Shown here: positions 15,073 to 37,549 of the stretch, piece by piece
Layout of the letters: each line of letters opens with the position of its first letter
How positions within the stretch are numbered: the first letter of the stretch is position 1
Virus record (IMG/VR): IMGVR_UViG_3300032286_000651
Location: 1-44,823 of that record
Length of the DNA stretch: 44,823 bases
DNA from: a virus
Reading direction: 5' to 3' (one strand)
Translations under genes and position numbers: made by a program
Notes under the pieces: generated by a model
Seen by the model: the letters and a program-made list of their open reading frames with translations, nothing else
Told to the model about the DNA's origin: nothing
Databases searched by the model: none

Positions 15073-18057
15073 TTACCAAGTGATTGTACCGGTACCTGAC
15101 GTAAACCTATATACTCTGTATCCACTTCTTGAGGGTTGATCATAACCTAGGCCACCCGTAATTGATGCGATGGGTGCGTAGGTGTTGGGATATGCAATAA
15201 TGACAACGCCACTGCCTCCATCCCCGCCAGGCTGGCTGCAGCCACCAGCACCACCACCGCCTCCAGTGTTGGCTTGGCCAGAGCCGCCGGGGCCATCGCA
15301 GTTGTTGACGTTTCTACCAGTTCCGCCACCACCTGCACCACCTGCACTGTCACAATAGGCCAAATTAGTCATATTGCCGCCGCCTCCGCCCCCAGCATAA
15401 TATGTACTTGACCCAGTAATACTAGATGGTAGCCCATCACCACCTTTAGGTGCTTGCCCAGTAGAAACTCCAACTGCCCCAGCTCCCCCGCCTCCACCAC
15501 CGATCGGCGCACCACGGTTCCCTTGTCCCGCTATGCCATTTCCATAATTTCCATAGTCTCGTCCACCTCCGCCACCTGATCCGCCATCACCACCAGTGGC
15601 CAAGCCACCATTGACATACATCCCACCATAACCCCCACCTGTGCTGGTTGTGCCGCCAAACGTTGAATTTGATCCCTGTGTTCCGATGGTTTTGTTAACG
15701 CCCGGACCGCCGCCACCCACAGTTACAGTATAGGGCGTGCCGGCCGAAATTCCAGTTGTGCCGGACAGATACCCACCAGCGCCGCCGCCCCCACCATGAT
15801 AGTGAGCAGTTCTACCTTGAGGTGCCGACCCACCACTACCACCACCAGCTACAACAAGATATTCCAGTGAGCCAGTAGGCACTTCCTGGGTAGTTGTTAT
15901 CTGATTACTAGAACCACTGCTGGAACTGTTACCTAATGAATTGGTTGCATATACCGTAAATGTATAAGTACCACCAGCACTTAACCCACTCACCGATATA
16001 GTACCCGAACCAGCTTGACTTAATGTTCCTGTTACACCACCGGGACTTGACACTGCTGTATAGCTGGTAATTGTGTTACCGCCGTTATTGGCAGGTGCAG
16101 TGTATGCGACCGTTGCAGTTGTTTTCCCTGTTGCTGTAGCAGTGCCAATAGTAGGAGCACCCGGTATAGTCCAAGGAGTTAAACTGTTACTGGACTGACT
16201 ATATGCACTGTTTCCAGCACTGCTGGTTGCATACACTCGGAAGGAATAAGTAAAGCCTGCAGTAAGTCCATTAACAGTTATAGAGCCCGAACCATTTTGG
16301 TATACAGTACCAGTGACGTTGCCTGGTGATGATACCGCAGTGTAACTGGTGATAGAGGCCCCGCCCTCGTAGGCCGGTGCAGTGTATGCAACAGAGATAC
16401 TGGTAGTACCCACTGCTGTTGCAGTACCAATTGTGGGTGCATCAGGAACAGGAGTAGTACTAGTGTCATTTATTATTATAGTTACATACGTTGCAGGGCT
16501 AACGCCGTCAAGAGTTAGCCTAAAAGTTTCAGACCCTTCTGTTAATTGATCTGCTGTGACTGTAACGGGCAGTGATGCTGTACCCGAAGCATATGTGCCA
16601 CTAATAGTAAAGTTACCAGTTAAACTGACTCCGCCAATATCAGCACTGTTAACGCCAGTGATAGTGTATGGAATTAGAGATCCTACTGCAGTATTAACAG
16701 TGTTTAATGTAACTGTAAAATTACCACCCTCGTTAACAGTAGTTGGGCCAATAATTAGTGAATAATTAGGTGTTAAACTACTGTCAACAAAAGTAACTGA
16801 TCTAGACGTAGTGGGCGTTACATTGTTTAATGTAATTGTAAATGTTTCTGTTCCCTCAGTAAATTGGTCCGCTGTAACAGCTATTGGCAATGTAGCGCTA
16901 GCAGAAGAATATGTGCCTGCCACGGTGAAATTACCAGTCAAATTGATTCCACCAATATCAGCACTGCTGATACCTGTTATAGTATAAGGAACTAAAGTAC
17001 CGGTAGCTATGCCAGTGGTTGTTAGTGTTACAGTGAAACTACCGCCCTCGTTTACAGTAGTAACCCCGCCTGTGCTGAGCGCATAGGAAATTGGAGTTGT
17101 GCTAGTATCTACAATTGCAACACTCGTAAATGCAGCAGGGCTAGCGCCAGTTATATTAAGCGTAAATGTTTCGGCTCCTTCAGTGTCAAGATCTGCAGAG
17201 ATAGACACCGGTAATGTGGCCGTGTTGTTGTTAATAATAAAGTTACCAACCAAATTGGCTCCATTGATATCTGCGCTGCTGACTCCCGAAATTGTATAAG
17301 CCACTGCTGAGCCATTGGACAAGTTGGTAGTTGTTAGTGAAACTGTAAAACTGCCGCCCTCGTTAACAGTAGTAACCCCGCCTGTACTGAGCGAGTAAGT
17401 GGGAGTCAAACTGGTGTCAACAATAGTTACACTGGCAGAGACCACACTGCCAACATTGTTTAAGCTAACTGTAAAAGTTTCATTGCCTTCTGTCAGCCGA
17501 TCTGCTGACACTGTGATGTTTAGTGCAGCAGTGCCGGAATTTACAGTAAATTGCCCGGTCAAACTTGTACCAGCAATGTCACTGCTACTAACGCCAGTGA
17601 TAGTGTAGGGCACTGTGGTACCATCTGGTGCGGAAGTTGTTAGTGTGACTGTAAAATTACCACCTTCATTTACAGTAGTAACACCACCGGTACTTAGCGA
17701 GTAGGCAATGGAAAATGGATTAGCGGAATAAAATATGCCATGTGGATACTGCCCAGTAGCCCCGCTGACGTTAACAACAAAAAAATCATAAATTCCAGCC
17801 GCTGCCTTTACAGGAGCCGTAAAGGTCAGTTGCGTTGAGTTCACCAGTGTAACTGCGGTTATTGGTGCTCGGTCTACTATAACATAAATGCCAGTGTAAA
17901 AATTAGTACCGTTAACTGTCACCAGTGTTCCACCAGTGATGATAGCGCCATTAGTAGATACCCCACTGGCACTGTATTGAATACTAGTGATTTGCGGTGT
18001 TTGGTATCGATAAATTGCGATATCAGTTGACGCTGGTGAAAACTTTTTTATGGTCAC
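15073..18057 (-). CDS. Adhesin: TIG - four Calx-beta - two FN3 - glycine-rich head - YDQP tag
   Basis: The 994-residue chain opens with MTIKK and an IPT/TIG domain (about 18-112). Four Calx-beta repeats follow (118-214, 220-317, 324-425, 431-531), each with VNEGG near the start, PYTITGVSSADI in the middle and a TEGxETF acidic loop. In this family the acidic loop binds calcium. Two FN3 units (538-628, 631-722; APTIGTATA, ITSYTAVSSPG, YTFTVYATNS) lead to a glycine-rich head (730-960; EYLVVAGGG, YTVTVGGGGPG, SGVVIIAYP) and the C-terminal tag GGLGYDQPSRSGYRVYRF. It lacks catalytic motifs and a signal peptide, as expected for a virion fibre. The ATG overlaps the stop of the 124-residue gene (ATGA), so the two are coupled. 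Likely role: a long calcium-stiffened stalk with a receptor-binding polyglycine tip. Confidence 0.88.
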   Translation of the reverse strand: MTIKKFSPASTDIAIYRYQTPQITSIQYSASGVSTNGAIITGGTLVTVNGTNFYTGIYVIVDRAPITAVTLVNSTQLTFTAPVKAAAGIYDFFVVNVSGATGQYPHGIFYSANPFSIAYSLSTGGVTTVNEGGNFTVTLTTSAPDGTTVPYTITGVSSSDIAGTSLTGQFTVNSGTAALNITVSADRLTEGNETFTVSLNNVGSVVSASVTIVDTSLTPTYSLSTGGVTTVNEGGSFTVSLTTTNLSNGSAVAYTISGVSSADINGANLVGNFIINNNTATLPVSISADLDTEGAETFTLNITGASPAAFTSVAIVDTSTTPISYALSTGGVTTVNEGGSFTVTLTTTGIATGTLVPYTITGISSADIGGINLTGNFTVAGTYSSASATLPIAVTADQFTEGTETFTITLNNVTPTTSRSVTFVDSSLTPNYSLIIGPTTVNEGGNFTVTLNTVNTAVGSLIPYTITGVNSADIGGVSLTGNFTISGTYASGTASLPVTVTADQLTEGSETFRLTLDGVSPATYVTIIINDTSTTPVPDAPTIGTATAVGTTSISVAYTAPAYEGGASITSYTAVSSPGNVTGTVYQNGSGSITVNGLTAGFTYSFRVYATSSAGNSAYSQSSNSLTPWTIPGAPTIGTATATGKTTATVAYTAPANNGGNTITSYTAVSSPGGVTGTLSQAGSGTISVSGLSAGGTYTFTVYATNSLGNSSSSGSSNQITTTQEVPTGSLEYLVVAGGGSGGSAPQGRTAHYHGGGGGAGGYLSGTTGISAGTPYTVTVGGGGPGVNKTIGTQGSNSTFGGTTSTGGGYGGMYVNGGLATGGDGGSGGGGGRDYGNYGNGIAGQGNRGAPIGGGGGGAGAVGVSTGQAPKGGDGLPSSITGSSTYYAGGGGGGNMTNLAYCDSAGGAGGGGTGRNVNNCDGPGGSGQANTGGGGGAGGCSQPGGDGGSGVVIIAYPNTYAPIASITGGLGYDQPSRSGYRVYRFTSGTGTITW

Positions 18058-18428
18058 AACGTTGCAACAGTCCAGATTTGGTTAGCTTCATCCCAAATAT
18101 ACAAGTTGCCATCTTGGGGCATAGGCGTTGGTGCTGACCACAAGCAGGTGTCTTCCTCTAGTACCCAACTTGGGTATGGCTGGGGTGGAACAAAGGCATC
18201 TCGCCCACTGTCATAACTGTAGCCAATGCCGGCATAGTTTTTACGAAATGGTGTGCCGCCCCGAGTATTTTGCCCACCTTGTGTGTTGTAGCTGGTGCGT
18301 AAACAGCGTTGCCCGGGACGGAATTCAGCGTAGTGCTGTTCCCAATCCATTGTGGTGTCAGTTTCGTCTTTGCCTACAATTACTTCTGTTACAATGTTGT
18401 TTTCGTTGATAAATGCGTAGTGTGCCAT
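18054..18428 (-). CDS. Small conserved phage protein, paralogue of the 44212-44574 gene
   Basis: The 124-residue product starts MAHYAFINENNIVTEVIVG and carries a strongly patterned region: TSYNTQGG, GGTPFRKNYAGIGYSYD, RDAFVPPQPYPSW, TCLW, DGNLYIWDE. The second copy, about 26 kb to the right, shares these blocks nearly residue for residue. Small proteins with this pattern are, as I recall, common in T4-like aquatic phages and have no assigned function. Position immediately before an adhesin, with a 4-base overlap, suggests a virion component or chaperone of that adhesin. The start is supported by a GAGG Shine-Dalgarno and by the best late promoter of the window, a full TATAAATA. Confidence 0.8.
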   Translation of the reverse strand: MAHYAFINENNIVTEVIVGKDETDTTMDWEQHYAEFRPGQRCLRTSYNTQGGQNTRGGTPFRKNYAGIGYSYDSGRDAFVPPQPYPSWVLEEDTCLWSAPTPMPQDGNLYIWDEANQIWTVATL

Positions 18429-18475: not shown

Positions 18476-20965
18476 CTACCAACTAATTGGGCCCGTGCCT
18501 CCGGTGAAGCGATATACTCTATAACCACTTCTACTGGGTTGATCATAACTTAATCCACCAGAGATTGATGATAGTGCCGGAGAGGCATTTGAATATGCAA
18601 TGATGACTACTCCGGAACCACCATTACCGGGTACTCCAAGAGAACCCCTAGATGCACCGCCACCACCGCCTGTATTTGCTGTAGCACCACCTCCACTAGA
18701 AGGGTCTCCGCCTCCGCCAGCACCACCCCCGCCATTGGACAAAGTTCCTGCTCCCCCGGTGCTATTTCCGCAGCCGCCACCTCCACCTGCATACCAAGTA
18801 GATGTACCTGTTATTGCGTTAGTAGTACCAGCTCCTCCTGCTCCCCCTGTAGAACCGTTAGGAGCATTACCGCCAACTGAACCGGCCCCACCACCGCCAC
18901 CACCAGAAAGGTTATTGCCTCCAGACCCTCCAGCATTTCCTTGATTGCCAGACCCACCAGAACGGTTATCTCCCCCACCGCCTCCAGAACCTCCAGATTG
19001 CCCTGTGGTTCCATCGTTAGCACCACCACCACCACCATTGGCAGTGACTGATGCAAAGACTGAGGAATTTCCTGGAGCGGCAAATCTAGTTTGTTGATAG
19101 ATAGTTCCACCTAATCCACCACCACCTACTGTAACAGTATACTGAGTCCCTAGTGTAACTGACAATGTTGATGTTAAGTAGCCCCCAGCACCTCCACCTC
19201 CACCAATTCCAGCACCGCCACCACCTCCCCCAGCAACAACTAGATATTCAACTGAAATTGTTGCAGCCTGTGTTGTTATTTGATTACTTGCTGTGCTAAG
19301 AATACTTACTCCTGCAGCATTAGTTGCATACACTGTAAAAGTATAAGGGGTACCAGCAGTCAGTCCCGTTACTGTAATGGTACCTGACCCTGCTTGACTT
19401 AGTGTACCGGTAATACCACCTGGACTACTTGTAGCGGTGTAACTGGTAATAGCAGATCCCCCGTTACTAGCAGGTGCAGTATATGCGACCGTTGCAGTTG
19501 TTTGCCCTGTTGCAGTAGCAGTGCCAATTGTGGGTTGCCCAGGGACAGTGTAGGGCGTTGCGGTATTACTGGGTTGACTTGCTGCACCTGTTCCTGCTAC
19601 ATTAGTAGCAGTTACCGTAAATGTGTAGGCTGTACCATTTGTTAGACTGCCTACTGTAATAGTACCCGACCCTGCTTGACTTACGGTACCAGTTATATTG
19701 TTTGGACTACTAGTTGCAGTATACCCTGTAACCGTACTTCCCCCATTGTCAAGTGGTGCCGTGTAAGTGACTTGAACAGTCTGTGACGCTGATCTAGTGG
19801 CAGTACCAATTGTTGGTGCGGCAGGTACCCCGTAGGGAGTTACAACACCGCTGTCGCTACTACTGGCACTGTTACCAGCAATATTAGTAGCGTAGACTGT
19901 AAATGTATAAGCTGTTCCATTGGTTAATCCACCGACAGTAATAGTGCCCGATCCAGCTTGAGATACGGTGCCGGTTAATCCACCAGGATTTGATACAGCA
20001 GTGTAACTGGTAATTGCTGTACCGCCGTTGTACCCCGGTGCTGTGTATGTGACTTGTATAGTTTGTGATGCCGACCTGGTAGCAGTGCCAATAGTGGGTG
20101 CGTTAGGTACAGAAAATACAGACCAAATAAATCGTCTGGTAGAGATTTTTCCTGCGGTGCTAGTAGCTGTTATGTAAGTGCTGATACTGCTGTTTGCGTT
20201 AGGAGTTCCAGAAATAAGATTACCAGACAGCGTCAACCCAGCAGGCAGCACATCTGCGGTATAAGTAATTGACAAACCTGCTGCACTTGTAGCCGTTAAC
20301 AATCGTGTAAATGGGACCCCAACAGTGCCAGAAAATATCGCGTCTGCTGCAGGACTAGACCAAGTGACTACATCAGGATTAATAGTAATAGTAAACACAC
20401 GAGTAGCAACACCAAGATCTGCATTGGTAGCACTGAGGGTAAAATTGTATGTAATAGCTGTGCCAACACTGGTAGAGGCACCCGATATTGCTCCAGTGGT
20501 GGTATTTAATGTAGTACCAGGAGGCAATGTACCACTATAGAACGCATAAGTCACCGCGCTGTTACTCGTAGCCAGTACATCTGTTACAGTAGGATCCACG
20601 TCTACTAATTCATATGCGCTGCCTAAACTTCCCGCAGGTGTAGTCCATACGGGTGCACCTGAATATCTTATGCCTGGCCCATATGCTACAGCAGTGCCGT
20701 TGGAGTTGTAAACATAAAAAGGATACGTACCGGCAGACTTAGCGGGAACGATTACTGTTGCTGAATTGGCATTGTTTATTGTTACATTGGTAATTATGGT
20801 TTGATCCACTACCACTGTCATGCCAGCAGCAAAGTTAGTGCCTGTTAATGAAATGGAAGAGGTACCAATGAGACCAGCATTTAGCGAAACATTGGTTATG
20901 GTTGGTGCTGTTGATCGCAACAACTCTGTACTAACAGCGTCAAGTGGTATTTTCTTGATGGTCAT
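18476..20965 (-). CDS. Adhesin: TIG - two putative-Ig - three FN3 - glycine-rich head - YDQP tag
   Basis: The 829-residue protein shares the MTIKK N-terminus with the 994-residue adhesin. A TIG domain (about 20-103; ISLTGTNFAAGMTVVVD) is followed by two cadherin-like putative-Ig domains (105-195 and 197-285; GTLPPGTTLNTTTGAISG and LPAGLTLSGNLISGTP). Three FN3 units come next (287-380, 380-473, 474-567), then a glycine-rich head (575-795; EYLVVAGGGGGG, YTVTVGGGG, GSGVVIIAY) and the tag GGLSYDQPSRSGYRVYRF. The two central FN3 units have RSASQTxQVTYTAP in place of the usual core, indicating a recent internal duplication. The ATG is 5 bases after a TAAATA motif and lacks a Shine-Dalgarno. Role inferred: stalk plus receptor-binding head. 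Confidence 0.88.
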   Translation of the reverse strand: MTIKKIPLDAVSTELLRSTAPTITNVSLNAGLIGTSSISLTGTNFAAGMTVVVDQTIITNVTINNANSATVIVPAKSAGTYPFYVYNSNGTAVAYGPGIRYSGAPVWTTPAGSLGSAYELVDVDPTVTDVLATSNSAVTYAFYSGTLPPGTTLNTTTGAISGASTSVGTAITYNFTLSATNADLGVATRVFTITINPDVVTWSSPAADAIFSGTVGVPFTRLLTATSAAGLSITYTADVLPAGLTLSGNLISGTPNANSSISTYITATSTAGKISTRRFIWSVFSVPNAPTIGTATRSASQTIQVTYTAPGYNGGTAITSYTAVSNPGGLTGTVSQAGSGTITVGGLTNGTAYTFTVYATNIAGNSASSSDSGVVTPYGVPAAPTIGTATRSASQTVQVTYTAPLDNGGSTVTGYTATSSPNNITGTVSQAGSGTITVGSLTNGTAYTFTVTATNVAGTGAASQPSNTATPYTVPGQPTIGTATATGQTTATVAYTAPASNGGSAITSYTATSSPGGITGTLSQAGSGTITVTGLTAGTPYTFTVYATNAAGVSILSTASNQITTQAATISVEYLVVAGGGGGGAGIGGGGGAGGYLTSTLSVTLGTQYTVTVGGGGLGGTIYQQTRFAAPGNSSVFASVTANGGGGGANDGTTGQSGGSGGGGGDNRSGGSGNQGNAGGSGGNNLSGGGGGGAGSVGGNAPNGSTGGAGGAGTTNAITGTSTWYAGGGGGCGNSTGGAGTLSNGGGGAGGGGDPSSGGGATANTGGGGGASRGSLGVPGNGGSGVVIIAYSNASPALSSISGGLSYDQPSRSGYRVYRFTGGTGPISW

Positions 20966-20981: not shown

Positions 20982-23900
20982 TTAGCTGGTTGGATAACGT
21001 ACGATTACTACACCTTGTGTACCAGCACCGCCGGCTCCCCCACCTTGACCGTAAGTACCGGCACGCAGTGCATCGCCGCTGTTACCAGGGGTGGCACCTG
21101 ACCCGTTGGTCACTGTAGTAGCCAAGCTGGATCCTCCCCCGCCTCCGCCGGCACCTACCCCGTCTTGCCCGGGCGGTCTTCCGTAGTCTCCCCCGCGATA
21201 CCCCCCGCCCCCTCCGCCTCCAGCAGACTGATCGCCAGCAGGAGTTGGTCCATTGGCTCCACCGTAAGAGCCTTGATTACCTGTCGCTCCACCTGTTGCA
21301 CTGCCAGTTGCTCCTTGCCCACCAGCAACTCCGCCCCCTCCTCCTAATCCGGCTCCGCCGCCTTCTGATCCACCGCCACCGCCACCACCGCCGGCAGCGA
21401 CTAGAACTGTACTACCTAAGGCAAAAATACTACCGCCCCCACCTCCACCTCCACCAGCAGAACATGGAGTAGCGCCTGCGTTAGATCCACTACCACCGGG
21501 CGCAAATGCACCACCACCTGCAGCGCCCCCACCAGCGTTGCCTACACAACCATATCCTCCACCACCACCTCCACCAGCGCTGACTGTATAAGTGGTTATC
21601 TGGGCGGAAACTAAAGAAGTCGCATATGCTCCACCTCCACCTGAGTTGCCACTTTGACCACCACCTCCACCACCAGCGCCCCACATAATGACTTCAAGAT
21701 TTTGCCCGGCACCAGCAGTAACAGTAAACGAAGTATTTGCTGTGCTGGTAAATGTGTGCACGTTGTAATTTTTGCTGTTGATAGTGGTAGTGGTTAAACT
21801 ACCGCCACTAGCAGATATAAAAGGCGACAGTGGAGTCGCCGAATTGCTGGATTGGCTAACAGGACTGTTACCTGCTGAGTTTGTTGCATAAACTGTAAAT
21901 GTATAAGCGGTGGTATAACTTAACCCGTTTACTGTTATAGTACCTGAACCTGCTTGACTGACGGTACCTGTTATGCTACCAGGAGTAGACACTGCTGTAT
22001 AACTGGTAATCGCTAGCCCACCATTGCTGGCAGGTGCTGTGAATGTAACAGTAGCACCGGATGTTATAGCAGTAGCAGTTCCAATGGTAGGAGCGCCGGG
22101 AACTGAATTAGCCGTTGCGGTGTTCCATTGAATGTTGCCAGTCCCGCCAATAAATCTGTACACATTGTATCCACTGCGGGTAGCTCCGCTGTCCAACGTA
22201 TAAACTAATCCTGAGGAAACGGTATTCAACGCCGGGTATGTGTTGGGGAGAGCAACGATAACTACGCCGCTGCCGCCTGAACCAGCATTACCAGACACGT
22301 ACCCACCACCGCCCCCGCCACTACCAGTGTTGGTTGCGCCGCTGCCAGGAGTGCCCACTGCTGTTCCTCCAACAGGACCCCCACCAGCACCACTTGTGCC
22401 ACTGTAGGCATTACCGCCCCCACCACCAGCGTATATAGTCACAATACCAGTTATGAAAAAAGTTATAGCTGCTCCGCCATCGCCGGCTGTATTACTGTTA
22501 AAGTTAGGAGTGCCACCAGCAGAGTTTGCTCCTCCACCTCCACCAGTCAATATGCTGCTGTTTGGTTGATTAGTACTGGAAGGCCCGCCACGGTTGCCGT
22601 ATGCTGTAAATCCTGTTGTGGCTGTTTGTGTAGCAGCACCGTAGTTTGAGTTTAGCGTACCTGTGGCTTGGCCACGAATATCTGCTGCACAGCCACCGCC
22701 CGATCCGCCATTAAACGACGTAGCAGGACTTTGCGTAAAATAACTAGCACCATATCCACCACCGTTGGCAGTGTTTGCACCAAATACACTATTACTACCT
22801 GGACTAGACGCGCCACCAGCACCAGTACCACCTGCTCCGCCAGCACCAACTGTGACCGTGTAGGCTGTTGATGCGGTTACTGTGGTTGTGGTACTGTATA
22901 GCACACCACCAGCACCGCCCCCGCCACCAATACCACCACTGCCGCCACCTGCTCCTCCTCCAGCTATGACCAATGCTTCAACTGCCCAAGAAGTAATGGT
23001 CCAATTTATAGTAATGTTTGCTGAACGTCCTGTGTTTGCTGCTGTAGCAGTAATGGTACTAGCAATAGTGCCTGACGCAGCCAGTGTACCAGTAATGGCA
23101 CTGCCTACAATGCTTAGACCTGCCGGTAGAGAAGACGAGCTGTAGGTTATAGCATTACCTGAAATACTGCTGGCGCTGAGTGCTTGATTTATTACTGCAC
23201 CACCTGTGGGAGTGTATGTGGTATTGTTGGCCGGGCTGGCCCAAGTAACTACATCAGCTAGCACAGCAAAACTGATAATTTGACTTGAGCTTCTGTTGGT
23301 ATTGGCTGTTGTTGCAGCCACTGTAGACAAATATGTGCCAGCAGTGGCAATGGATCCCGACACAACATTACCAGTAAGGGTTACACCAGGTGGCAAACTA
23401 CTTGCTGAATATGTAATAGTGCTACCTATAGAACCTGTAGCCGACAGAGTTTGGCTAACTGTGCCAGACTCGTAAATGGTAATACCTGCCCCATTAACTG
23501 GCGTTATCCAAGTTATTGTTTCAGGATCAACAGCAATACTAAAATCTCTAGAGGTGAACTGCTGTTCTGCATCAGTAGCAGTAACGGTAAAATTATAAGT
23601 AGCTGTACCCGTTGTTGCTAGTAATCTAGCCGGTACTGAAATTACACCAGTAGTTGTGTTTAGTACGGTATCAGGCGGCAATGTACCTGCGGTTACAGCA
23701 TACCTAAGCGAGCTGTCAGAATTGGCTGCAAGGGCAAAAGTGCCCGAAGTGTATTCTGTTAAGGACCCCAAACTACCAGTTGCTGTGGACCAAACAGGTT
23801 TATCACTGTAGTACACTCCTGTACCAAAAACTCCAGTACTGCCGTTGCTGTTGCGTACAAACAGCAAGTAAGTTCCGCCAGTGGCCAGTGCCGGTAACAC

Positions 23901-24144: not shown

Positions 24145-26595
24145 TTACACTATAATTAGTACTTTACCGTTACCTGTGATACCACCAGCAGTACCAACAC
24201 CGTAATTGTTCCACAATGTGGTTAACGCAGGGTCAAGATATCCTGAACCACCACCACCTGATCCACCTGATCCATAGTTGCTGTTAATTCCACCACCACC
24301 ACCACCATAGAATCCGCCACCGCCACCAGACGCACGCCCTGGGTTATTACCGCCCAAAGTTCCAATACCCCCAGCTGCTCCTTGACCCAAGCTGCCCGCG
24401 TTGCCAACTACTACGTCCCCGGTACCTGCTCCACCGCCTGCACTAGTAGAAGCTGCTCCGCCAGCAGTGCTGATAGGCCAAGCGCCGCCGCAACCAGTTT
24501 GTCCAGTTACTCCACCGTTTCCGGGACTAGCACCGTATCCTGCGCCTTGTCCCACAGTGGCAGCCGTACCACCGCAACCACTGTTAACAAATCCAGAATT
24601 TGACCCACATCCTCCACCGCCGCCACTTACAATAAATCTATTAGCTAACGCGGTGCCACCTCGTCGTATGTCGCTAGCACCACCACCACCCGATCCTAAA
24701 CGCTGCACCGACACGCCTGCACCGCACCCAGCTCGGTTACCCCCACCAGTACCGCCACCATTGTATCCGCCAGCGCGAGTAGTATCAGCTACGCAACCAG
24801 TACTTCCTCCATCTGCCCCCACCCCGCCAACAAATACATACAGAGTTTCGCTAGGTGTTGTGGTAATGAAAGTTCTTGTTCGTCCACCTTCCCCTCCAAG
24901 TTCTCCACCTTGTGCACCACCAACATCCACCAATGCAAAGTTTCTGTTGCTGGGCACAGTCCAGTTTTGCTGTCCCCCGGTGTAGGCAAAGTAGCGTATG
25001 GTTCTAGTCATGTCAGCACCAGTGTAGGTACCAGATTTTTTGGGTCTTATTAACAATGTTCTGTCAGCACCACTGTTTACTGTTAGTCCAGAAATGGTAG
25101 CTGTAGCTGGTGATCCTTGTAGAGCACCATCAATGTATACGTCAAAGGTGTCGGGTGTGCCCACAGCAGTAGTATAGTAATTCCAAGCTAGACTAACAGT
25201 GCCAGCGGCTGCCACAGTAGAAGTTATAATAGACCTCATTATTGGCAGCACCCCTACCCCAGTCAGTGCACCAGTGCCAACAGTAATAGTCATGTTTTTA
25301 GCAGCGGCAGCGCCCACTGGGGTTAAGTCTGACGTAGTTATGTTTAGTGAAGTAGCGTTGTTGGTTATTGTTACATTGCCTGTCAGTGATGCGTTATTAA
25401 TATCGCTGCTGCTAACACCACTAATGGTGTAAGGTAGCACAGTACCACTGGCAATATTGGTTGTAGCAATATTGACGGTATAAGAATTACCATAATCAAG
25501 AAATGCATTTGATGTAGTAAACGCATAAGTTGGTGTAAGTGATGTGTCGCCAATGGTTACTGCTATACTGGTAGTGGTACCCACCAAGGTCAGTGTGAAT
25601 GTTTCAGTGCCTTCAGTTATTTGGTCAGCAGTAACAGAAAAAGTTATCACTGCTGAATTATTAACAACAGTAAAGTTACCTGTCAAACTAGCACCATTGA
25701 TGTCAACCGCAGCAACGCCGGTTATAACATAGGGCACTAGTGTATTGTCTATTATGTTTTGTCCAATCAATCCAATTTGGAAAGAACTACCTTCGTTAAC
25801 TGATGTAACACCATATGACGTCAGCGCATAAAGGGAATCCAAAATATTTACAGTTACCGAGACTCCAGTGTTGTCTAAAGTTACTGTGATATTTTCAGTC
25901 CCCTCAACCAGTGTATCTGACGCAACTTGTACGGTTAAGACTGCTGTACTGTTGTTGACTACGAAATTACCAGTAGATGTTACCAAATTGGTGTCAGACA
26001 AACTAGCAGTACCAGTAACAGTATAAGGCACCACTGTCCCGTCAGGCAAGTTGGTAGAAGTCAGTGTCAATACGATCACCCCACCTTCAGAAATTGACGA
26101 AACATTAGATGTTAACGCAATGTACTGCATTGGGAAACTTTGAGGCAACATACGTGTGTCATTATCCAAGACCAAATACACTGGGTAAGTTCCGCCAATC
26201 AATAATGAAACTGGCACTGTAATCAGTGTGTTGGTAATAACAGCGTCGGCAATAACATTATCACCAACAACAATACTTTTTACCAAGGACAAATTTGTGC
26301 CCGCAATTTGAAAATTTTTCAATGTCAAACTGTTGTTGATTAACCCTGTTATTTGTATATCGTCTGCAGCGCCTGACCAAGTCGTGCCCGTCCATTTAAT
26401 GGTTTGATTGGCACCAATAGAGGACATGGTAACTGGATAAGATCCAAACCCGGTGGGGTAACTGTACTGCCAAGCATTGCTATTGTAAATTAGTGCTCGA
26501 CCTGTAGCGAGATTGTCTGTGTTGACTACACTGCTGACTGCAGTATTGGCCAGTGTAGTTAACCTGCTGCGAGATTTTTTTCTAGACCTTGCCAT
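24145..26595 (-). CDS. Adhesin: basic N-terminus - TIG - three Calx-beta - FN3-like - ALK-type glycine-rich head
   Basis: The 816-residue protein opens with a basic MARSRKKSRSR tail and a short GRALIYNSNAWQY module shared with the next two genes upstream. TIG-like fold at about 78-158 is followed by Calx-beta units (160-253, 255-352, 355-450; the third is degenerate and lacks the TEGxETF loop) and an FN3-like unit (450-530). The C-terminal head (535-816) differs from the other glycine-rich heads. It has GQQNWTVP, VDVGGAQGGE, TLYVFVGG and GGGGASDIRRGG, then FIVSGGGGG, the pattern of the glycine-rich domain of animal ALK/LTK receptors. Eight or so Cys residues in the head suggest disulfides or metal binding. 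It starts 1 base after the upstream stop, so it is coupled. Confidence 0.87.
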   Translation of the reverse strand: MARSRKKSRSRLTTLANTAVSSVVNTDNLATGRALIYNSNAWQYSYPTGFGSYPVTMSSIGANQTIKWTGTTWSGAADDIQITGLINNSLTLKNFQIAGTNLSLVKSIVVGDNVIADAVITNTLITVPVSLLIGGTYPVYLVLDNDTRMLPQSFPMQYIALTSNVSSISEGGVIVLTLTSTNLPDGTVVPYTVTGTASLSDTNLVTSTGNFVVNNSTAVLTVQVASDTLVEGTENITVTLDNTGVSVTVNILDSLYALTSYGVTSVNEGSSFQIGLIGQNIIDNTLVPYVITGVAAVDINGASLTGNFTVVNNSAVITFSVTADQITEGTETFTLTLVGTTTSIAVTIGDTSLTPTYAFTTSNAFLDYGNSYTVNIATTNIASGTVLPYTISGVSSSDINNASLTGNVTITNNATSLNITTSDLTPVGAAAAKNMTITVGTGALTGVGVLPIMRSIITSTVAAAGTVSLAWNYYTTAVGTPDTFDVYIDGALQGSPATATISGLTVNSGADRTLLIRPKKSGTYTGADMTRTIRYFAYTGGQQNWTVPSNRNFALVDVGGAQGGELGGEGGRTRTFITTTPSETLYVFVGGVGADGGSTGCVADTTRAGGYNGGGTGGGNRAGCGAGVSVQRLGSGGGGASDIRRGGTALANRFIVSGGGGGCGSNSGFVNSGCGGTAATVGQGAGYGASPGNGGVTGQTGCGGAWPISTAGGAASTSAGGGAGTGDVVVGNAGSLGQGAAGGIGTLGGNNPGRASGGGGGFYGGGGGGINSNYGSGGSGGGGSGYLDPALTTLWNNYGVGTAGGITGNGKVLIIV

Positions 26596-26596
26596 G

Positions 26597-27334
26597 TTAG
26601 ACCACCGTCATGGTAAATGCTTTGCTGGCGGTTTGTCCACGATAGTCTGTAGCCAACAGTGTAAAATTGTAAATGGATGTCGAGTTAGGCGAGCCGGTCA
26701 ATACTCCGCCAAGACTGAGAGCAAGTCCAGCAGGAATCGTGCCTGCGATTACTGTAAAAATATAAGTGGGTGCCACGTCCATGGTAAACTGAATTGACAA
26801 TGATACATTGTTGGGAAACGACCCCAAATTAGCGGGATTAACAATAACAGGAGCTGCTACATAAGTAACTGCATTTGTCAAAACTGTGCATTCGCCATCA
26901 CCATTTGATAAAAATAAACTGTAGACGCCAGGAGTAGGCACACCCGGCAGTACTCCAGTTATGGTGGTGGAATTGACCACCACGACACTGGTTAGTGCTG
27001 TTTGATTGATATAGAGTCGTGGAACTGAGAGAAATCCGATGCCGGTCACTGTTACTGCATCACCGCCCCCTATGTTGGCAGCTGATTTATTTGTTATTGC
27101 CACAGCAGTAATGGTCAGCCCTTTAAGATATCGATTAGTCCAAACAGTGCCATTATAAACCATGGTCTGCCCCGCAGCCAAATTGCTAACAGTGAATGAT
27201 CGGCCCAACAAATAATTACCATAGCCCACCGTATACTGTGCACCGTCATAGATCACAGACTGCCCAGAGTTTGGCATTGTATTGGCGATGCCAACAGTTG
27301 ATAATCCTTTTGATACTTTGCGTGTTTTTGCCAT
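26597..27334 (-). CDS. Short fibre protein: basic N-terminus - TIG - putative-Ig, no head domain
   Basis: The 245-residue product begins MAKTRKVSKGLSTVG, then two Y-x-G-x-x-W repeats (SVIYDGAQY, TMVYNGTVW). TIG (about 75-160; AVTVTGIGFLSVPRLYINQ) and one putative-Ig unit (160-245; AGTIPAGLALSLGGVLTGSP) follow, and the protein ends with that strand. It thus equals the stalk base of the neighbouring adhesins without any glycine-rich or lectin head. Its stop is one base before the next start, and its ATG overlaps the upstream stop. It may be a collar or spacer subunit, or a head-less relic. The family assignment is good; the role is inferred. Confidence 0.8.
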   Translation of the reverse strand: MAKTRKVSKGLSTVGIANTMPNSGQSVIYDGAQYTVGYGNYLLGRSFTVSNLAAGQTMVYNGTVWTNRYLKGLTITAVAITNKSAANIGGGDAVTVTGIGFLSVPRLYINQTALTSVVVVNSTTITGVLPGVPTPGVYSLFLSNGDGECTVLTNAVTYVAAPVIVNPANLGSFPNNVSLSIQFTMDVAPTYIFTVIAGTIPAGLALSLGGVLTGSPNSTSIYNFTLLATDYRGQTASKAFTMTVV

Positions 27335-27792
27335 CAGCGTATCTTTATAAATGCAAATTGCCCATTGGTTTGAACCAAGTAGAGAAAAATACTAGCATCT
27401 GCAATAAGAGGCACATTAACTGCAGCAGTTGTACTGCTAACATAATTAAATGTGCACTTGGTAACATTGGCCATAGCTGACAAATCACTGGTAAAATTGC
27501 TGCCAGTCAATGCAATAGTTGTAGCTATTACAGAACTAGGTGCGCCACTGTAGGCAGTTATTTTAACAGGCGCTAGTGTTGCATAGGTCCACCCCGAGCC
27601 TGTGTACTTGATATAGCTATTAGCAACAGGTGCTGTAGCCGGGGCCGGAAACGAACCTAGTCCAGTGGGTGCCCCCGGTGACCAAGCTGTGCCAGTATAA
27701 ACCAAACTTTGGCCCGCAGCAGGATTTGAAGATACTACTCCAACTCCGTTGATTTTATTTGAAATTCTAGCATTGGTACGGCTTTTTGACAT
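27334..27792 (-). CDS. Short fibre protein: basic N-terminus - TIG only
   Basis: I take the ATG at 27792 (MSKSRTNARISNK), which matches the basic N-termini of the two downstream paralogues, rather than an upstream TTG at 27819 that would overlap the promoter. The 152-residue product has two short Y-x-G-x-x-W modules (SLVYTGTAW, YIKYTGSGW) separated by a GLGSFP segment. A single TIG domain (about 80-152; TTIALTGSNFTSDLSAM) ends the chain at FIKIR. It is the smallest member of the basic-N-terminus class and has no head. A TAAATA motif ends 7 bases before the ATG and no Shine-Dalgarno is seen. It begins the operon 27792 to 20982. Confidence 0.75.
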   Translation of the reverse strand: MSKSRTNARISNKINGVGVVSSNPAAGQSLVYTGTAWSPGAPTGLGSFPAPATAPVANSYIKYTGSGWTYATLAPVKITAYSGAPSSVIATTIALTGSNFTSDLSAMANVTKCTFNYVSSTTAAVNVPLIADASIFLYLVQTNGQFAFIKIR

Positions 27793-27799
27793 AACACAG

Positions 27800-27805
27800 T
27801 ATTTA
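27800..27805 (-). promoter_or_regulatory. T4-type late promoter motif (AATAAATA), 7 bases before the start codon
   Basis: AATAAATA lies in the 30-base gap after the 759-residue gene, with CTGTGTT between it and the ATG at 27792. It probably drives four genes down to 20982. Confidence 0.55.
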
Positions 27806-27822
27806 TTGGCACTAGTCAAACA

Positions 27823-30102
27823 TTACCAAAGGATAAAAATTTGTCCGTTTCCTGTGTTGTATCCAGCGCTGCTGGTGCCGTAACTGGAAAACAGCGAAGT
27901 TAATCCACCGGCAAGGAATCCTGATCCGCCGCCGCCTGATCCAGCAGATCCGTAGTTGCTGTTACTTCCTGCGCCACCACCACCGTAGTATCCGCCACCA
28001 CCACCGCCCCCGTAGCCAGGATTATCACCGCCAACAGCACCGGTTTGCCCATTGCCACCTTGGCCTAGGCTACCGGCAGTTCCACTGTACACACTACCTG
28101 ATCCACCAGAGCCGCCTGCGCTGGTTGACGCTGCTCGTCCTTGTGCGCCAAATGGCCAGCCTCCACCGCAAGCAGCTAGCCCTGTAACCCCACCTTCCCC
28201 TGCATTGGTATTGTACCCAGCGCCCTGCCCCACAGTAGCCGGTGTTCCCCCGCAACCGCTGTTGGGGTAGGCACCACCGCCACCACCGCCCGATACAACA
28301 ATTCTGTTAGCCAGTGCATTACCGCCTTGACGTATGTCACTAGCACCACCGCCCCCTGGGCCCAATGCATAAGCTAGTCCACTAGGGCACCCATAGCCGT
28401 CAGACACAGATCCGCCAATGCCGCCGCCATTGAATCCACCGCCAACTTGTCCAGGATTCCCTCCGCAAGGGGATCGATAACCGCTACCGCCTTGTCCACC
28501 TACATACATGTACAGCGTTTCGCTAGGTGTAGTAGTAATGTAAGTTTTAGTCCTGCCACCTTGTCCGCCCGTTGACCCACCTTGAGCGCCTTGCGTGTCA
28601 GCCATTACATATGTGACCCCAGCGGGCACTGTCCAATTTTGCTGACCACCTGTGGTAGAGAACAGTCTAAATTTAGCGCTTACAGCCGACATAAATGTAC
28701 TTTGGTTATAGGCGTTGATAGTCAGCAAACGATCTGCCCCAGCGCTCATAACCAAAGATGTTGAAGGGCTAGTAACAGTGGACTGACTAACGCCATCTAC
28801 CAGTACTTGATAACTGGTAGGTGTACCACCAGTGAAATTGTTCCAACTCAAAGACACTGTGCCATTGGCATTAAGCGTTGTTGCAATTGCTGGAGCAACA
28901 GCGGTTGTTATGCTGTTGCTAGCGCTGCTGGCAGGACTGTTGCCCACTGAGTTGGTAGCATACACAGTAAATGTATAAGCAGTGCCAGCACTGAGACCAC
29001 CAACATATATAGATCCAGACCCTGCTTGTGTTACAGTAGCTGAAATTCCACCGGGGCTGCTGACAGCAGTGTAACTAATGATGCCAGCGCCGCCTGAGGC
29101 TGCTGGAGCTGTATAACTGATGGTAGCTGAATTTGGACTTCCTGTCACAGCAAGTCCAATTGTGGGTGCAGAGGGAACCACAGTGGGTGTAATGTTAAAA
29201 TTCAATGTTCTAGAGGCTGATCTGCCTGTGCTGACCGACGCAATAATAGTAGTAGCAACAGTGCCTGCCACAGTGGGAGTACCGCTAATGACATTGCCAC
29301 TGATGTTTACTCCAACGGGTAAATTGGTAGCAGAATAAGAGACTGTATTGCCAAACGAACTAGTAGCACTGAGCGATTGACTAACCGCGTTGTTAACGAA
29401 ATTGGTAATGGTAGAGCCGTCTGCAGGGCTGCTCCATGTGACGACCTCAGGTATTACTGTGACACCAAACGTTCTAGGGGTAGATTGGTTTTCTGCGTCT
29501 ATGGCATTAAGTGTAAAATAGTAGGTGGTAGACGAGCCCGACACTACTTGCGTTGTTATGCCAGTTAATTGCCCGGTGTCTGTGTTAATCGCTGTGCCTG
29601 GTGGCATGATTCCGTCTTTGTAACTGTATCTTACCGTACTGTTACTGGTGGCCACAACCGGGGAAATTACAGTGGAAATTTCTGTGCTTTCATTGACACT
29701 GCCTAATACGCCCGCAGCAGTTGTCCAAGCAGGGCCAAGATCAAAATTAACGTAGTTTTTCTTTAAACAAAACAAGCTGTAACTATTATTGACCAGTAGA
29801 TCATACGCACCTGCAGCCAACAGCGGAGTAACCGCTTGCAACTGTGTAGTGCTGATGTAGGTTACACTGCTGCACAGTTGATTATTGATCAGTACCTGTG
29901 TATTAGAATCAAACCCTGTACCTGTGATGGTTATTGTGTTGGCTGTGTTGGGAGTTGCAGCAGTTTGTGCATCGTAGGTGACGCTGGTTATAGTAGGCGA
30001 AATTAATGTAGAATCAACTTGATCAACCGCAATGCTGTCACTTAACCGCGAAGTTGTTATAGCATTGGCGACAAGATTAGCAGCAGTGATTTTTGTGGTC
30101 AT
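27823..30102 (-). CDS. Adhesin: TIG - two putative-Ig - FN3 - FN3-like - ALK-type glycine-rich head
   Basis: The 759-residue protein starts MTTKITAANLVANAITTSRLSD, a polar helix-like N-terminus shared with the upstream 1382-residue protein. Domains in order are TIG (about 35-122; TITITGTGFDSNTQVLINN), two putative-Ig units (123-217, 217-310), FN3 (312-402; APTIGLAVTG variant), an FN3-like unit (405-485) and an ALK/LTK-type glycine-rich head (487-759). The head has GQQNWTVPAG, ADTQGAQGG, TLYMYVGG, GGGGASDIRQGG and RIVVSGGGGGG. It is the sister of the head in the 816-residue protein. The gene starts 12 bases after the upstream stop with no TAAATA motif, so it belongs to the operon led by the gene at 35312. 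Likely a receptor-binding fibre. Confidence 0.87.
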   Translation of the reverse strand: MTTKITAANLVANAITTSRLSDSIAVDQVDSTLISPTITSVTYDAQTAATPNTANTITITGTGFDSNTQVLINNQLCSSVTYISTTQLQAVTPLLAAGAYDLLVNNSYSLFCLKKNYVNFDLGPAWTTAAGVLGSVNESTEISTVISPVVATSNSTVRYSYKDGIMPPGTAINTDTGQLTGITTQVVSGSSTTYYFTLNAIDAENQSTPRTFGVTVIPEVVTWSSPADGSTITNFVNNAVSQSLSATSSFGNTVSYSATNLPVGVNISGNVISGTPTVAGTVATTIIASVSTGRSASRTLNFNITPTVVPSAPTIGLAVTGSPNSATISYTAPAASGGAGIISYTAVSSPGGISATVTQAGSGSIYVGGLSAGTAYTFTVYATNSVGNSPASSASNSITTAVAPAIATTLNANGTVSLSWNNFTGGTPTSYQVLVDGVSQSTVTSPSTSLVMSAGADRLLTINAYNQSTFMSAVSAKFRLFSTTGGQQNWTVPAGVTYVMADTQGAQGGSTGGQGGRTKTYITTTPSETLYMYVGGQGGSGYRSPCGGNPGQVGGGFNGGGIGGSVSDGYGCPSGLAYALGPGGGGASDIRQGGNALANRIVVSGGGGGGAYPNSGCGGTPATVGQGAGYNTNAGEGGVTGLAACGGGWPFGAQGRAASTSAGGSGGSGSVYSGTAGSLGQGGNGQTGAVGGDNPGYGGGGGGGYYGGGGAGSNSNYGSAGSGGGGSGFLAGGLTSLFSSYGTSSAGYNTGNGQIFILW

Positions 30103-35326: not shown

Positions 35327-37549
35327 TTACCAACTGATTGGACCAGTACCGTTAGTAAAGCGATATACTCTATATCCTGATCTTGTTGGTTGATCGTAAG
35401 TTAGTCCACCCGAGATTGACGATAATGGTAAAAATGTATTTGGGTAAGCAATGATTACAACACCGGATCCGCCCTGTCCAGCAGTACCTCCAGATCCATT
35501 ACCACCACCCCCACCACCAGTATTACCACCACCAGGATTTTGTCCGTTACCGGTGCCACCACCGCCAGAACCTCCAGATCCAGCAGTACCGACATAAAGT
35601 TGGCCACCACCTCCGCCTGCATAGTATGTAGATGTACCAGTTATACCAGATAGATTTCCTATACCACCATCACCGCCTTTAGTAGTTTGTCCACTTTGTC
35701 CAACAGCTCCGGCGCCGCCACCTCCGCCTGATCCAAAGTTTGGACTTGTAATACCTGCTCCACCATTATTACCTTGTCCTGCTGTACCGGCACCGCCAGC
35801 ACCATCATAATGGCCACCACCACCGGATCCACCAGCAGATCCATAACCAATACCTCCACCGTCGTTACCGGCGCCACCTCCTCCTCCTACTGTACTAATC
35901 GAAGCAAATTGACTAGCTGTTCCATTAGATCCTCGTCCTGCAGTTAAATTACTGCCAGGTCCGCCACCGCCAACGGTTACAGTGTATGCAGTACTTGGTG
36001 AGACTGATAATGTACTGGTTAACATACCACCAGCACCACCACCACCACCTCTACCACCAGATGCGCCGCCACCTCCGCCTCCACCAGCAACAACCAAGTA
36101 TTCTACTGAAGTTGGTGCTGCTTGGTTTGTCGTTATTTGATTACTAGAGTTGCTTGATACACTATTACCAACGGAATTTGTAGCATACACTGTAAAAGTA
36201 TAAAGGGTACCGGCAGTCAATCCCGTTACTGTAATAGTACCCGATCCTGCTTGACTTAGTGTACCAGTAACACCACCCGGACTACTTGTAGCAGTGTAAC
36301 TGGTAATTGTTCTACCACCATTGTTACCAGGTGCTGTAAATGCTACTGTTGCAGATGTTTGACCAGTTGCTGTTGCAGTACCAATAGTAGGTGCGCCTGG
36401 CACCGTGGCTGCAACAACAGTTAAACTAAAAGTTCTAGGACTGTCTTGTAATTCAACGTCGTTAGCAACTACAGTGAAATTGTAGATGGTATCCACAGCC
36501 AAACCTGACACTGTGCCACTGAGCAGCCCACTGGTGCTGAGATTTAGTCCTGACGGCAATGTACTGCCACTGGCCAACGAGTAAGTGATTGTGCTGTCAC
36601 TGCTGGCAGCCAATTGTATGCTGATAGGACTGCCCGAAGTGCCATTGGGCAATGTACTACCGGTGCTCCAAGCAGGCGTGCCACTAAACGTAACAGCATT
36701 GACACGAATAGCTACTGCACCGTCAGGATTAACCAAATACATTATATAAGTACCGGCAGAGGTGGCCGGTAATTGTGCACGAACTTCGGTGCTGCTGACA
36801 AAAGTCACACTGGTCGCAGCCACAGTACCAACGAGTACGCTGCATCCAGTAACAAATCCTGTACCTGTGATTTTAATGTAACCACCAGCGGTGCCGACAG
36901 CAGTGTCGTCTAGTACCACGTAACTTGAGTCAGTTACAGCAACTCCAGTAATTTTAGATGCACTGGAACCCGTAATTGTGATTACGCCAGTGGTATTGTC
37001 GTAGCTGCCCGCACCTGTTACGCTGATAGCAGCCCTGGCTCTCGCGTTAGTATAATATAAATTAGTACCTTCAGTGACATTGCTGGTGGTCAATGTTACA
37101 GCACCAGTTTGCCCATTGAGGCTGGTCAACACCGTATAAGGTAGCGTAATAACGCCAGTGCTGCTGTTGTAAGTACCACCGGGACCAGCAACACTAATAG
37201 CTGATCTTGCTGCTGCAGTTGCTCTGGCTGTGGTATAGTATAAATTAGTGCCCTCAGCCAAATTGGTTGTAGTGTACTGGCTTAGACTGCTAGTGGCGCC
37301 TGGGCTGACAGCGCCGCCAACTTCAATCCATTGTGTGCTGTCTGCATCACTGTAGTAGACAAAGGTTTTCCCATTGGTGCTGTTGAACCACAGTGTACCC
37401 ACTGGGGGTGCGGTTGGGGCTGTGTCTGCGATATATACGCTGGCCGCACCGGTTTGGCTTTTCCAATAGTCCCCGGTCCACCGCCAACTGTTGTCATTAG
37501 CAGTAAAAAGTTGATTATTGGTAGGATTTGAGGGAAACGCAATAGCCAT
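35327..37549 (-). CDS. Adhesin: fibre N-module - EGTNLYYT repeats - TIG - putative-Ig - FN3 - glycine-rich head - YDQP tag
   Basis: The 740-residue protein starts with the MAIAFPSNPTNNQLF...WRWTGDYWK module, then GTLWFNSTNGKTFVYYSD. Two fibre repeats follow with EGTNLYYTxARA (about 99-120 and 160-178). TIG lies at about 200-287 (YIKITGTGFVTGCSVLVG), a putative-Ig unit at 290-380 and FN3 at 384-475. The glycine-rich head (482-710; EYLVVAGGGGGGG, YTVTVGGGGPG) ends with GGLTYDQPTRSGYRVYRF. The first 290 residues parallel the whole of the next gene upstream. A TAAATA motif ends 5 bases before the ATG and no Shine-Dalgarno is seen, so it probably has its own late promoter. Inferred role: receptor-binding fibre. 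Confidence 0.88.
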   Translation of the reverse strand: MAIAFPSNPTNNQLFTANDNSWRWTGDYWKSQTGAASVYIADTAPTAPPVGTLWFNSTNGKTFVYYSDADSTQWIEVGGAVSPGATSSLSQYTTTNLAEGTNLYYTTARATAAARSAISVAGPGGTYNSSTGVITLPYTVLTSLNGQTGAVTLTTSNVTEGTNLYYTNARARAAISVTGAGSYDNTTGVITITGSSASKITGVAVTDSSYVVLDDTAVGTAGGYIKITGTGFVTGCSVLVGTVAATSVTFVSSTEVRAQLPATSAGTYIMYLVNPDGAVAIRVNAVTFSGTPAWSTGSTLPNGTSGSPISIQLAASSDSTITYSLASGSTLPSGLNLSTSGLLSGTVSGLAVDTIYNFTVVANDVELQDSPRTFSLTVVAATVPGAPTIGTATATGQTSATVAFTAPGNNGGRTITSYTATSSPGGVTGTLSQAGSGTITVTGLTAGTLYTFTVYATNSVGNSVSSNSSNQITTNQAAPTSVEYLVVAGGGGGGGASGGRGGGGGAGGMLTSTLSVSPSTAYTVTVGGGGPGSNLTAGRGSNGTASQFASISTVGGGGGAGNDGGGIGYGSAGGSGGGGHYDGAGGAGTAGQGNNGGAGITSPNFGSGGGGGAGAVGQSGQTTKGGDGGIGNLSGITGTSTYYAGGGGGQLYVGTAGSGGSGGGGTGNGQNPGGGNTGGGGGGNGSGGTAGQGGSGVVIIAYPNTFLPLSSISGGLTYDQPTRSGYRVYRFTNGTGPISW

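Follow-up and report, generated by a model that had tools for sequence, protein, structure and literature searches.

The window analysed here, the complete IMG/VR record IMGVR_UViG_3300032286_000651 of 44,823 bases (all positions are given in its numbering), contains a series of stalked adhesin-like genes, the tips of which fall, according to Pfam, into two distinct glycine-rich families, PF12810 and PF21722. Two of these genes, 24145-26595 and 27823-30102, are open frames on the minus strand, and each of them ends in a C-terminal glycine-rich head of about 278 residues. Judging from Pfam, from a viral profile compared with the PDB and from a predicted fold, the relation of these heads to the receptors ALK and LTK, which was put forward in a preliminary description of the sequence, is right as a statement on the family. 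The homology of the stalks crosses the head families, hence these families appear to have been recombined on common stalks within one locus. It seems rather probable that the ALK-type and the PF21722 heads act as exchangeable receptor-binding tips on stalked adhesins of a contractile-tailed phage.

Assignment of the heads by sequence

The motifs on which the preliminary description was based are present in both heads, namely GGQQNWTVP, GGQGG or GGEGG, TLYMYVGG or TLYVFVGG, GGGGASDIR[QR]GG and VVSGGGGG or IVSGGGGG, and the two heads are 61% identical to each other. Several details need correction. The heads had been placed at 24145 and 27823; they exist, but these positions are the 3' (C-terminal) ends of the genes (for the extent of the heads see Table 1). 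The VSGGGGG motif is not the final one but lies mid-domain, with about 150 residues still to come. The rest of the locus had been assigned to heads of the EYLVVAGGG kind; eight such heads are indeed present, but the head of 8539-11079 belongs to PF12810 and the second head of 20982-24137 to neither kind. A degenerate DNA pattern for the signature GGGGA[ST]DIR has two matches in the window, and 100 dinucleotide shuffles gave none. The signature is carried by the two window heads and is present in most of the viral rows described below.

A profile search against the ALK domain, a structure prediction and an inspection of cysteine conservation had been proposed as checks. In whole-protein searches both genes score above the curated cut-off of 24.5 bits of PF12810 (ALK_LTK_GRD), and no Pfam match to PF21722 was obtained in either of them. 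Two alignments of 36 rows each were built for further comparison. Besides the two window heads, the ALK-kind alignment includes 34 locus references out of 46 candidates, so that all its rows come from the window or IMG/VR. The EYLVVAGGG-kind alignment comprises the eight window heads and 28 locus references out of 197 candidates. At E<=0.001 all 36 rows of the former matched PF12810 and no other family, and all 36 rows of the latter matched PF21722 and no other. With an ALK-type profile made from 33 viral rows, leaving out the window heads and their closest relative, the heads of 27823-30102, 24145-26595 and 8539-11079 were clearly recognised (scores in Table 1) and the eight EYLVVAGGG heads stayed below 0 bits. 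The reverse leave-out profile of the PF21722 type gave 134.5 to 198.4 bits for the eight EYLVVAGGG heads and values below 0 for the two ALK-type heads.

When the 36-row viral profile was compared with 177,635 distinct PDB sequences, only ALK and LTK were significant, with seven ALK sequences (E 1.5e-12 to 6.5e-12) followed by LTK (1.2e-8), and the next match had an E of 0.63. Both kinds of profile search thus agree with the ALK-type identity. The bias correction of HMMER was large in this comparison (34.5 bits, with ALK scoring 50.1), therefore shuffle controls were run. For each of the three PF12810 heads, none of 200 composition-preserving shuffles reached the observed score, regardless of whether the correction was on or off. 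With the correction off, the two heads scored 195.9 and 210.5 bits with the ALK-type profile (0/200 shuffles as high), and the EYLVVAGGG heads scored 84-115 bits, values that were matched by 1 to 13 of 200 of their own shuffles. No kinase domain or EGF-like segment was detected in either gene by Pfam at E<=0.1, and by sequence the window heads represent an ALK-type domain and not an ALK receptor.

Direct searches were less productive. Neither kind of head gave a match by tblastn against phages, megablast of 20500-44823 gave no match, and a search for related loci with a single head yielded no confirmed relative. Our guess is that low-complexity filtering caused the tblastn failures, because profile searches do find relatives. 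Hence, relatives were sought by DNA patterns and purpose-built profiles.

The cysteines, which had been regarded as part of the ALK pattern, did not bear out this view. Four cysteine columns are common only to the two window heads and the head of the IMG/VR locus L010 (3 of 36 rows), and any residue at all is found there in only 4 to 10 rows. A fifth column is filled in 24145-26595, L010 and the distant L070, and L010 keeps all five cysteines of the 24145-26595 head. The four cysteines of the 27823-30102 head (65, 91, 136 and 164) all fall into ten-residue blocks of low confidence in the model described below, with a mean predicted local distance difference test (pLDDT) of 56-63. From the alignment, the head cysteines seem to be mainly a lineage trait.

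Predicted fold of the two head kinds

The head of 27823-30102 was modelled with AlphaFold2 without templates (pLDDT 83.9, predicted template modelling score (pTM) 0.88); the weights used presumably predate the ALK structures of 2021. A Foldseek search of the PDB with this model returned 41 matches, 21 of them at E<=0.001, and all of these 21 were ALK/LTK chains including C. elegans 7lir. The structure prediction is also in line with the family assignment when VIA-align is used. The model aligns with ALK/LTK at Z 13.9-15.2 over 186-197 residues, with a root mean square deviation (rmsd) of 3.1-4.4 and 25-31% identity, and with the Bxb1 tail tip and the Pam3 fibre at Z 7.5-8.8 over 126-165 residues (165 at rmsd 9.4). 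Hence, the ALK-type head as predicted fits human ALK better than the solved phage-fibre heads.

The head of 35327-37549 was modelled as a representative of the EYLVVAGGG kind (Table 1). Its best solved matches by Foldseek were the Bxb1 tail tip (E 2.1e-4) and the Pam3 fibre (0.031), and ALK/LTK followed at E about 2 or worse. By VIA-align it gave Z 14.4 with Bxb1 and 12.3-12.9 with Pam3 over 170-171 residues, versus Z 4.7-5.3 over 105-115 residues with ALK/LTK. The two head kinds are therefore different, as had been claimed; they differ in Pfam family, in leave-out profile and in nearest solved structures. A profile-profile comparison links them over 58 N-terminal columns (probability 84%, E 7.7e-6). 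With respect to the models, both kinds read as one broad architecture in two old branches, a TNF-like sandwich plus a glycine-rich part in the wording of PMC9608196.

Shared stalks and exchange of heads

The genes 24145-26595 and 27823-30102 align with each other only over linker and head (residues 457-815 versus 406-758, 54% identity in 362 columns). Their stalks have other partners. The stalk of 27823-30102 (residues 22-420) aligns with residues 4-401 of 18476-20965 at 40% identity over 406 columns (E 2.2e-69), and the stalk of 24145-26595 (residues 154-410) aligns with that of 15073-18057 at 46% identity over 267 columns (E 2.6e-50). Both partners carry EYLVVAGGG heads of PF21722. A Calx-beta domain is weak in 24145-26595 (18.4 bits, cut-off 27) and reaches 41.4 bits in 15073-18057. 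The linker travels with the ALK-type head, since it is found in both window genes and also before the head of L010. Taken as a sequence comparison, these alignments indicate that head families have been recombined on shared stalks in this locus. The first 216 residues of 27823-30102 match the start of 30115-34263 (34%), a minus-strand gene in which a related stalk bears five Laminin_G_3/ConA-like stretches as yet another, third type of tip.

Related phages and distribution of PF12810 heads

The glycosyltransferase gene 4144-8220 served as a landmark for related phages. It encodes on the minus strand a fusion of 1358 residues with glycosyltransferase and FkbM methyltransferase domains, which is strongly conserved in 10 related contigs. 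It finds 11 IMG/VR loci; in 10 of these the best segment is 79-94% identical, in the eleventh 31%, and five of the 10 close loci hold sequence upstream of the gene. Whole-record family searches detected PF12810 in 1 and PF21722 in 2 of the 11 loci. In L010 (the same as L322) an ALK-type head lies one gene away from the glycosyltransferase gene and scores 338 bits with a profile of the two window heads. PF21722 heads occur near the glycosyltransferase gene in L316 and L323. L317 contains a relative of 8539-11079 (57% over 508 columns), whose head scores 29.4 bits with the ALK-type profile made here and gave no PF12810 match in the whole-record search. No glycine-rich head was found in L325 by either profile made here; between a virion structural gene and the glycosyltransferase, L325 (1-9796) has a quite different gene set. 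By sequence, the relatives thus differ in head type near one conserved gene.

On a larger scale, the GGGGA[ST]DIR signature was found in 72 IMG/VR loci, of which 67 hold a head by iterated profile; the signature is present without a head by this profile in L029, L034, L047, L050 and L064. A stricter signature retrieved 117 genome loci, and among the 80 of these that were listed, 67 were Bacteroidota by title. The best-scoring cellular relatives of the ALK-type head are likewise mostly Bacteroidota. The preliminary description had spoken of an animal domain; the family of the ALK/LTK glycine-rich domain is correctly named, but "animal" is too narrow for a family that is common in Bacteroidota genomes and phages. 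In BFVD, 61 matches to the ALK-type model were obtained at E<=0.001, and among the 50 of them listed, 8 are named "receptor protein-tyrosine kinase" (six from tailed phages, one "virus sp." and one algal virus). Viral entries with this name include A0A8S5QTR7 and A0A1D7SXD8. The label was presumably carried over from the name of the PF12810 family.

The co-occurrence of both head families was considered as a possible rarity and dropped, because 2 of 8 complete named phages examined carry both (S-RSM4 and the Sinorhizobium phage Phosso) and the combination is thus not unique. Among these eight phages PF12810 was found in 2 and PF21722 in 4; in Phosso the PF12810 pieces pass the cut-off only together, at 32.5 bits. 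IMG/VR records with the ALK-type signature contain PF21722 in 2 of 72 cases. PF12810 was found in 0 of 100 (of 120) records with the other-kind signature, in a search in which no control was matched either. A quick family tree of 108 heads, which included 55 of 102 bacterial rows and used only the Shimodaira-Hasegawa-like approximate likelihood ratio test (SH-aLRT) for support, grouped the two window heads and L010 with support 100 on a long stem, the deeper placement of which is unresolved. The pairing of the two window heads with each other reached a support of only 82. The head of 8539-11079 grouped with the PF12810 head of S-RSM4 (support 94) and not with the two ALK-type window heads.

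Comparison with known systems

With the ALK/LTK glycine-rich domain (PF12810; PDB 7nx0, 7nx3, 7lrz and 7n00) the window heads have the VP, GAxGG, L-Y-x-x-VG, GGGGAT/S and GGGG positions in common in the printed alignment. Unlike the ALK/LTK receptors, the window genes show no kinase or EGF-like domain by Pfam, their head is C-terminal on an Ig-like stalk in a phage tail locus, and the cysteines of the heads seem to be a trait of their own lineage. The Gly_rich_2 (PF21722) heads of the same locus have the same stalk classes and similar first 58 columns but differ in Pfam family and nearest structures.

The link between phage glycine-rich tips and ALK is already in print. The tail fibre gp24 of the cyanophage Pam3 (7yfw, 7ypx) has, according to Wei et al. 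2022 (PMC9608196), a TNF-like plus glycine-rich tip, which was reported to resemble C. elegans ALK with 2.6 A over 125 CA and was proposed to bind the receptor. Compared with our ALK-type model it gives Z 8.6 and 7.5 and is nearer to the EYLVVAGGG kind. Pam3 gp24, a trimeric fibre, has a helical stem and a chaperone gene according to the same paper, whereas the window genes have an Ig-like stalk. The mycobacteriophage Bxb1 tail-tip protein (9d93 Qa/Qb) is the best solved match of the EYLVVAGGG kind, compared with Z 8.8 to the ALK-type head. The T-even gp38 adhesins (S16, 6F45; PP01) resemble the window heads in having polyglycine segments, and their variable tip loops are implicated in receptor binding, but they have a beta-helix base (PMC6851490, PMC12892980); 6F45 was not among the matches listed for either head model. 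PMC12892980 describes an involvement of the gp38 tip loops of PP01 in OmpC-dependent adsorption. Two mutations by which the fibre TFP_Y of a Klebsiella phage is adapted to a lipopolysaccharide mutant sit in its glycine-rich domain (PMC12671077).

The Synechococcus phage S-RSM4 comes close to the combination found here, with a PF12810 head in SRSM4_131 (59 bits) and a PF21722 head in SRSM4_144 (75 bits) about 7 kb apart near g13-g15. They are situated at 87.7-88.4 and 95.6-96.4 kb, with g13-g15 on one side and a giant tail-fibre-like gene on the other, and both are annotated as hypothetical. Their frames of only 363 and 353 residues are too short for the long stalks of the window. In a literature search on phage glycine-rich tips and ALK, no title among the matches listed joins a phage head to ALK, and PF12810 as a word turned up only for a fungus.

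Proposed function of the heads and alternative explanations

The row of stalked adhesin-like genes lies beside tail genes of what appears to be a contractile-tailed phage. By PHROGs, tail sheath (stabiliser) and virion structural proteins adjoin or sit inside the array. The tail gene of the window has its nearest matches (37-38% identity) in large Sinorhizobium, Agrobacterium and Pseudomonas phages, and the virion protein 11589-14630 is nearest to cyanophages (44-47% identity among the 15 of 116 records listed). The two genes and most others of the row are built from an N-terminal segment, followed by Ig-like stalk domains (TIG, He_PIG, Calx-beta, fn3) and the C-terminal head. The PF12810 head is predicted to be a beta-sandwich of the same kind as the ligand-binding domain of ALK/LTK, containing a long insert of polyglycine and loops that vary, and the eight PF21722 head domains may represent the phage-fibre version of the same broad design. 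The heads could then be swappable tips, given that ALK-type heads are found on two classes of stalk and that each class bears a PF21722 head in another gene. The targets of these tips would most likely be molecules of the host surface (glycans or outer-membrane proteins), and by carrying or exchanging head families the phage might alter what it can bind. A receptor-binding role is suggested by the C-terminal position, the tail context, the sharing of stalks and the differences between relatives; the position of the heads in the virion, their oligomeric state, their binding of receptors and the breadth of the host range are inferred. That different head kinds recognise different receptors, as had been supposed, is plausible, and more so because stalk/head recombination was found.

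Several observations weigh against this interpretation. The TM-scores of Foldseek against ALK/LTK are modest, with 0.37-0.44 in 19 of the 21 chains and 0.29 in two C. elegans chains, and over the full Foldseek alignment the rmsd of those 19 chains is about 9-12 A, so that the good Z values come from a core of about 190 residues. The head of 27823-30102 alone reaches 24.2 bits, and six-frame searches gave 22.7 (27823-30102) and 18.7 bits (24145-26595), all just under the PF12810 cut-off; the score varies with the scoring mode, hence the margin depends on the bias correction. A single-sequence PDB search with a head (phmmer, E<=1) found no match, and the ten PDB matches of the profile at E<=1 do not include C. 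elegans ALK (7lir), which appears only by fold. The two head models were compared with each other only by way of solved structures. Among the three closest heads, 42 of 100 residues are invariant in low-confidence blocks versus 98 of 178 elsewhere, which is a modest difference. Finally, the related records are fragments, so that an absent head type in a relative is weak evidence.

An origin of the ALK resemblance in glycine-rich composition is hardly credible. The bias correction is large and, once it is switched off, the other heads also attain considerable scores, but the shuffles of equal composition largely refute this explanation; moreover, the equally glycine-rich EYLVVAGGG heads stay below 0 bits with the correction on, and the fold prediction agrees with ALK/LTK. 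It is also unlikely, albeit to a lesser degree, that both kinds share one fold, differ just in their loops and do the same job, their variety reflecting redundancy or drift and not different receptor classes. This possibility would be compatible with the profile-profile match, with the cross matches of both models, with the presence of both kinds on the same stalk classes and with the fact that most EYLVVAGGG heads slightly exceed their own shuffles with the ALK-type profile, though below 0 bits. One fold with only loop differences was also the outcome that the preliminary description had named as contrary to its view. A common core is indeed likely (cross Z 4.7-8.8), but each kind fits its own solved structures over more length, and Pfam crossover was seen in 0 of 72 rows at E<=0.001.

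The heads might alternatively be structural caps, spacers or modules for general stickiness without a specific receptor, which we regard as quite improbable. PF12810-like domains also exist in many cellular genomes, and we know of no receptor role for these. However, the papers on phage fibres cited above describe such glycine-rich tips, which are related to the heads, as binding receptors, and the heads differ among close phage relatives near one gene. To a similarly low degree we believe that the ALK-type head was captured from a surface protein of the host, for example in Bacteroidota, which it would mimic in order to bind the host partner of that protein. The dominance of Bacteroidota among genome loci and top cellular relatives would fit such a capture, but the tree places the two window heads with L010 in a separate, well-supported group on a long stem, and the hosts of the phage's named relatives are cyanobacteria and proteobacteria.

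Compared with these alternatives, exchangeable receptor-binding tips remain the preferred reading. A further idea, which we put forward tentatively and hold to be somewhat less probable than its opposite, is that ALK/LTK owe their ligand-binding ectodomain to a late capture from an ancient family of adhesion heads of bacteria and phages, because the phage head is nearer to human ALK than to solved phage heads and uses the stalks of another family. If true, phage tips and an animal ligand receptor would bind their partners via one inherited scaffold, and the locus would represent a system of natural head swapping, which permits a comparison of two scaffold families on equal stalks. The findings connect a large number of phage and bacterial proteins with an unusual receptor domain of animals and offer a likely reason for the kinase label in viral databases. 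With two glycine-rich head families on shared stalks in one locus, it becomes testable whether the head family sets the receptor class. Beside the known link of phage tips to ALK, the locus is an unusually instructive new case; on the basis of the sequences, new here are the ALK-type heads on stalks homologous to those of EYLVVAGGG heads and the different heads in relatives near the same glycosyltransferase gene.

Other features of the locus

Table 1. Heads, linkers, stalks and landmark gene in the window
Feature	Position	Strand	Evidence
ALK-type (PF12810) head of gene 24145-26595, residues 537-816	24148..24987	-	Pfam 40.5 bits, E 4e-10 whole protein; leave-out profile 93.1 bits
ALK-type (PF12810) head of gene 27823-30102, residues 482-759	27826..28659	-	Pfam 47.4 bits, E 3.2e-12 whole protein; leave-out profile 113.5 bits; AlphaFold2 model
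GGGGASDIR signature, head of 24145-26595	24665..24690	-	Pattern match, chance expectation 0.00
GGGGASDIR signature, head of 27823-30102	28331..28356	-	Pattern match, chance expectation 0.00
Linker domain of gene 24145-26595, residues 457-536, fn3-like by eye	24988..25227	-	Aligns with linker of 27823-30102
Same linker in gene 27823-30102, residues 406-481	28660..28887	-	Alignment; also precedes head in L010
Calx-beta-type stalk of gene 24145-26595, residues 154-410	25366..26136	-	Homology to stalk of 15073-18057
Stalk of gene 27823-30102, residues 22-405, He_PIG and fn3	28888..30039	-	Homology to stalk of 18476-20965; Pfam
Third PF12810 head, gene 8539-11079, near N-terminus	10282..10923	-	32.1 bits whole protein, 44.6 bits six-frame; leave-out ALK-type profile 62.3 bits
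Second glycine-rich head of 20982-24137, neither kind	20985..21815	-	Below 0 bits with both leave-out profiles
Gly_rich_2 (PF21722) head, EYLVVAGGG kind	15190..15897	-	76.7 bits
Gly_rich_2 head	18593..19282	-	86.2 bits
Gly_rich_2 head, first head of 20982-24137	22158..23030	-	70.5 bits whole protein; absent from six-frame listing; leave-out profile 134.5 bits
Gly_rich_2 head of 35327-37549, modelled	35444..36136	-	89.8 bits; model pLDDT 93.3, pTM 0.90
Gly_rich_2 head	38555..39235	-	84.2 bits
Gly_rich_2 head	39832..40542	-	52.4 bits
Gly_rich_2 head	42488..43240	-	82.6 bits
Gly_rich_2 head	43394..44122	-	66.6 bits
Glycosyltransferase/FkbM methyltransferase gene, landmark for related phages	4144..8220	-	Pfam; 10 IMG/VR relatives at 79-94% best-segment identity

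In the gene 8539-11079 (minus strand) the PF12810 head lies close to the N-terminus, with fn3 and a weak fibrinogen-like GGGW motif behind it; the fibrinogen-like reading was made by eye, and NCBIfam NF040941 gave 24.3 bits, under its cut-off of 30. The second head of 20982-24137 carries EVIMWGAGG. Two short headless genes on the minus strand, 26597-27334 (He_PIG) and 27334-27819 (TIG), lie between the two genes with ALK-type heads and may be either decayed copies or stubs with a function. At 44697-44795 (minus strand) the end of a further Gly_rich_2 head (26.6 bits) is cut by the window edge. The small minus-strand genes 18054-18428 and 44212-44574 are alike by eye, and the latter matches phrog_7759; a solved relative of 44212-44574 was searched by sequence and none was found. 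Genes related to either of the two are also found in L316, L323 and L325, and it is possible that these small genes are assembly helpers. A tail sheath stabiliser gene and then, by eye, a NUDIX hydrolase (3707-4165) occupy 2355-4165 on the plus strand, and such neighbours are also annotated in several large Pseudomonas phages.

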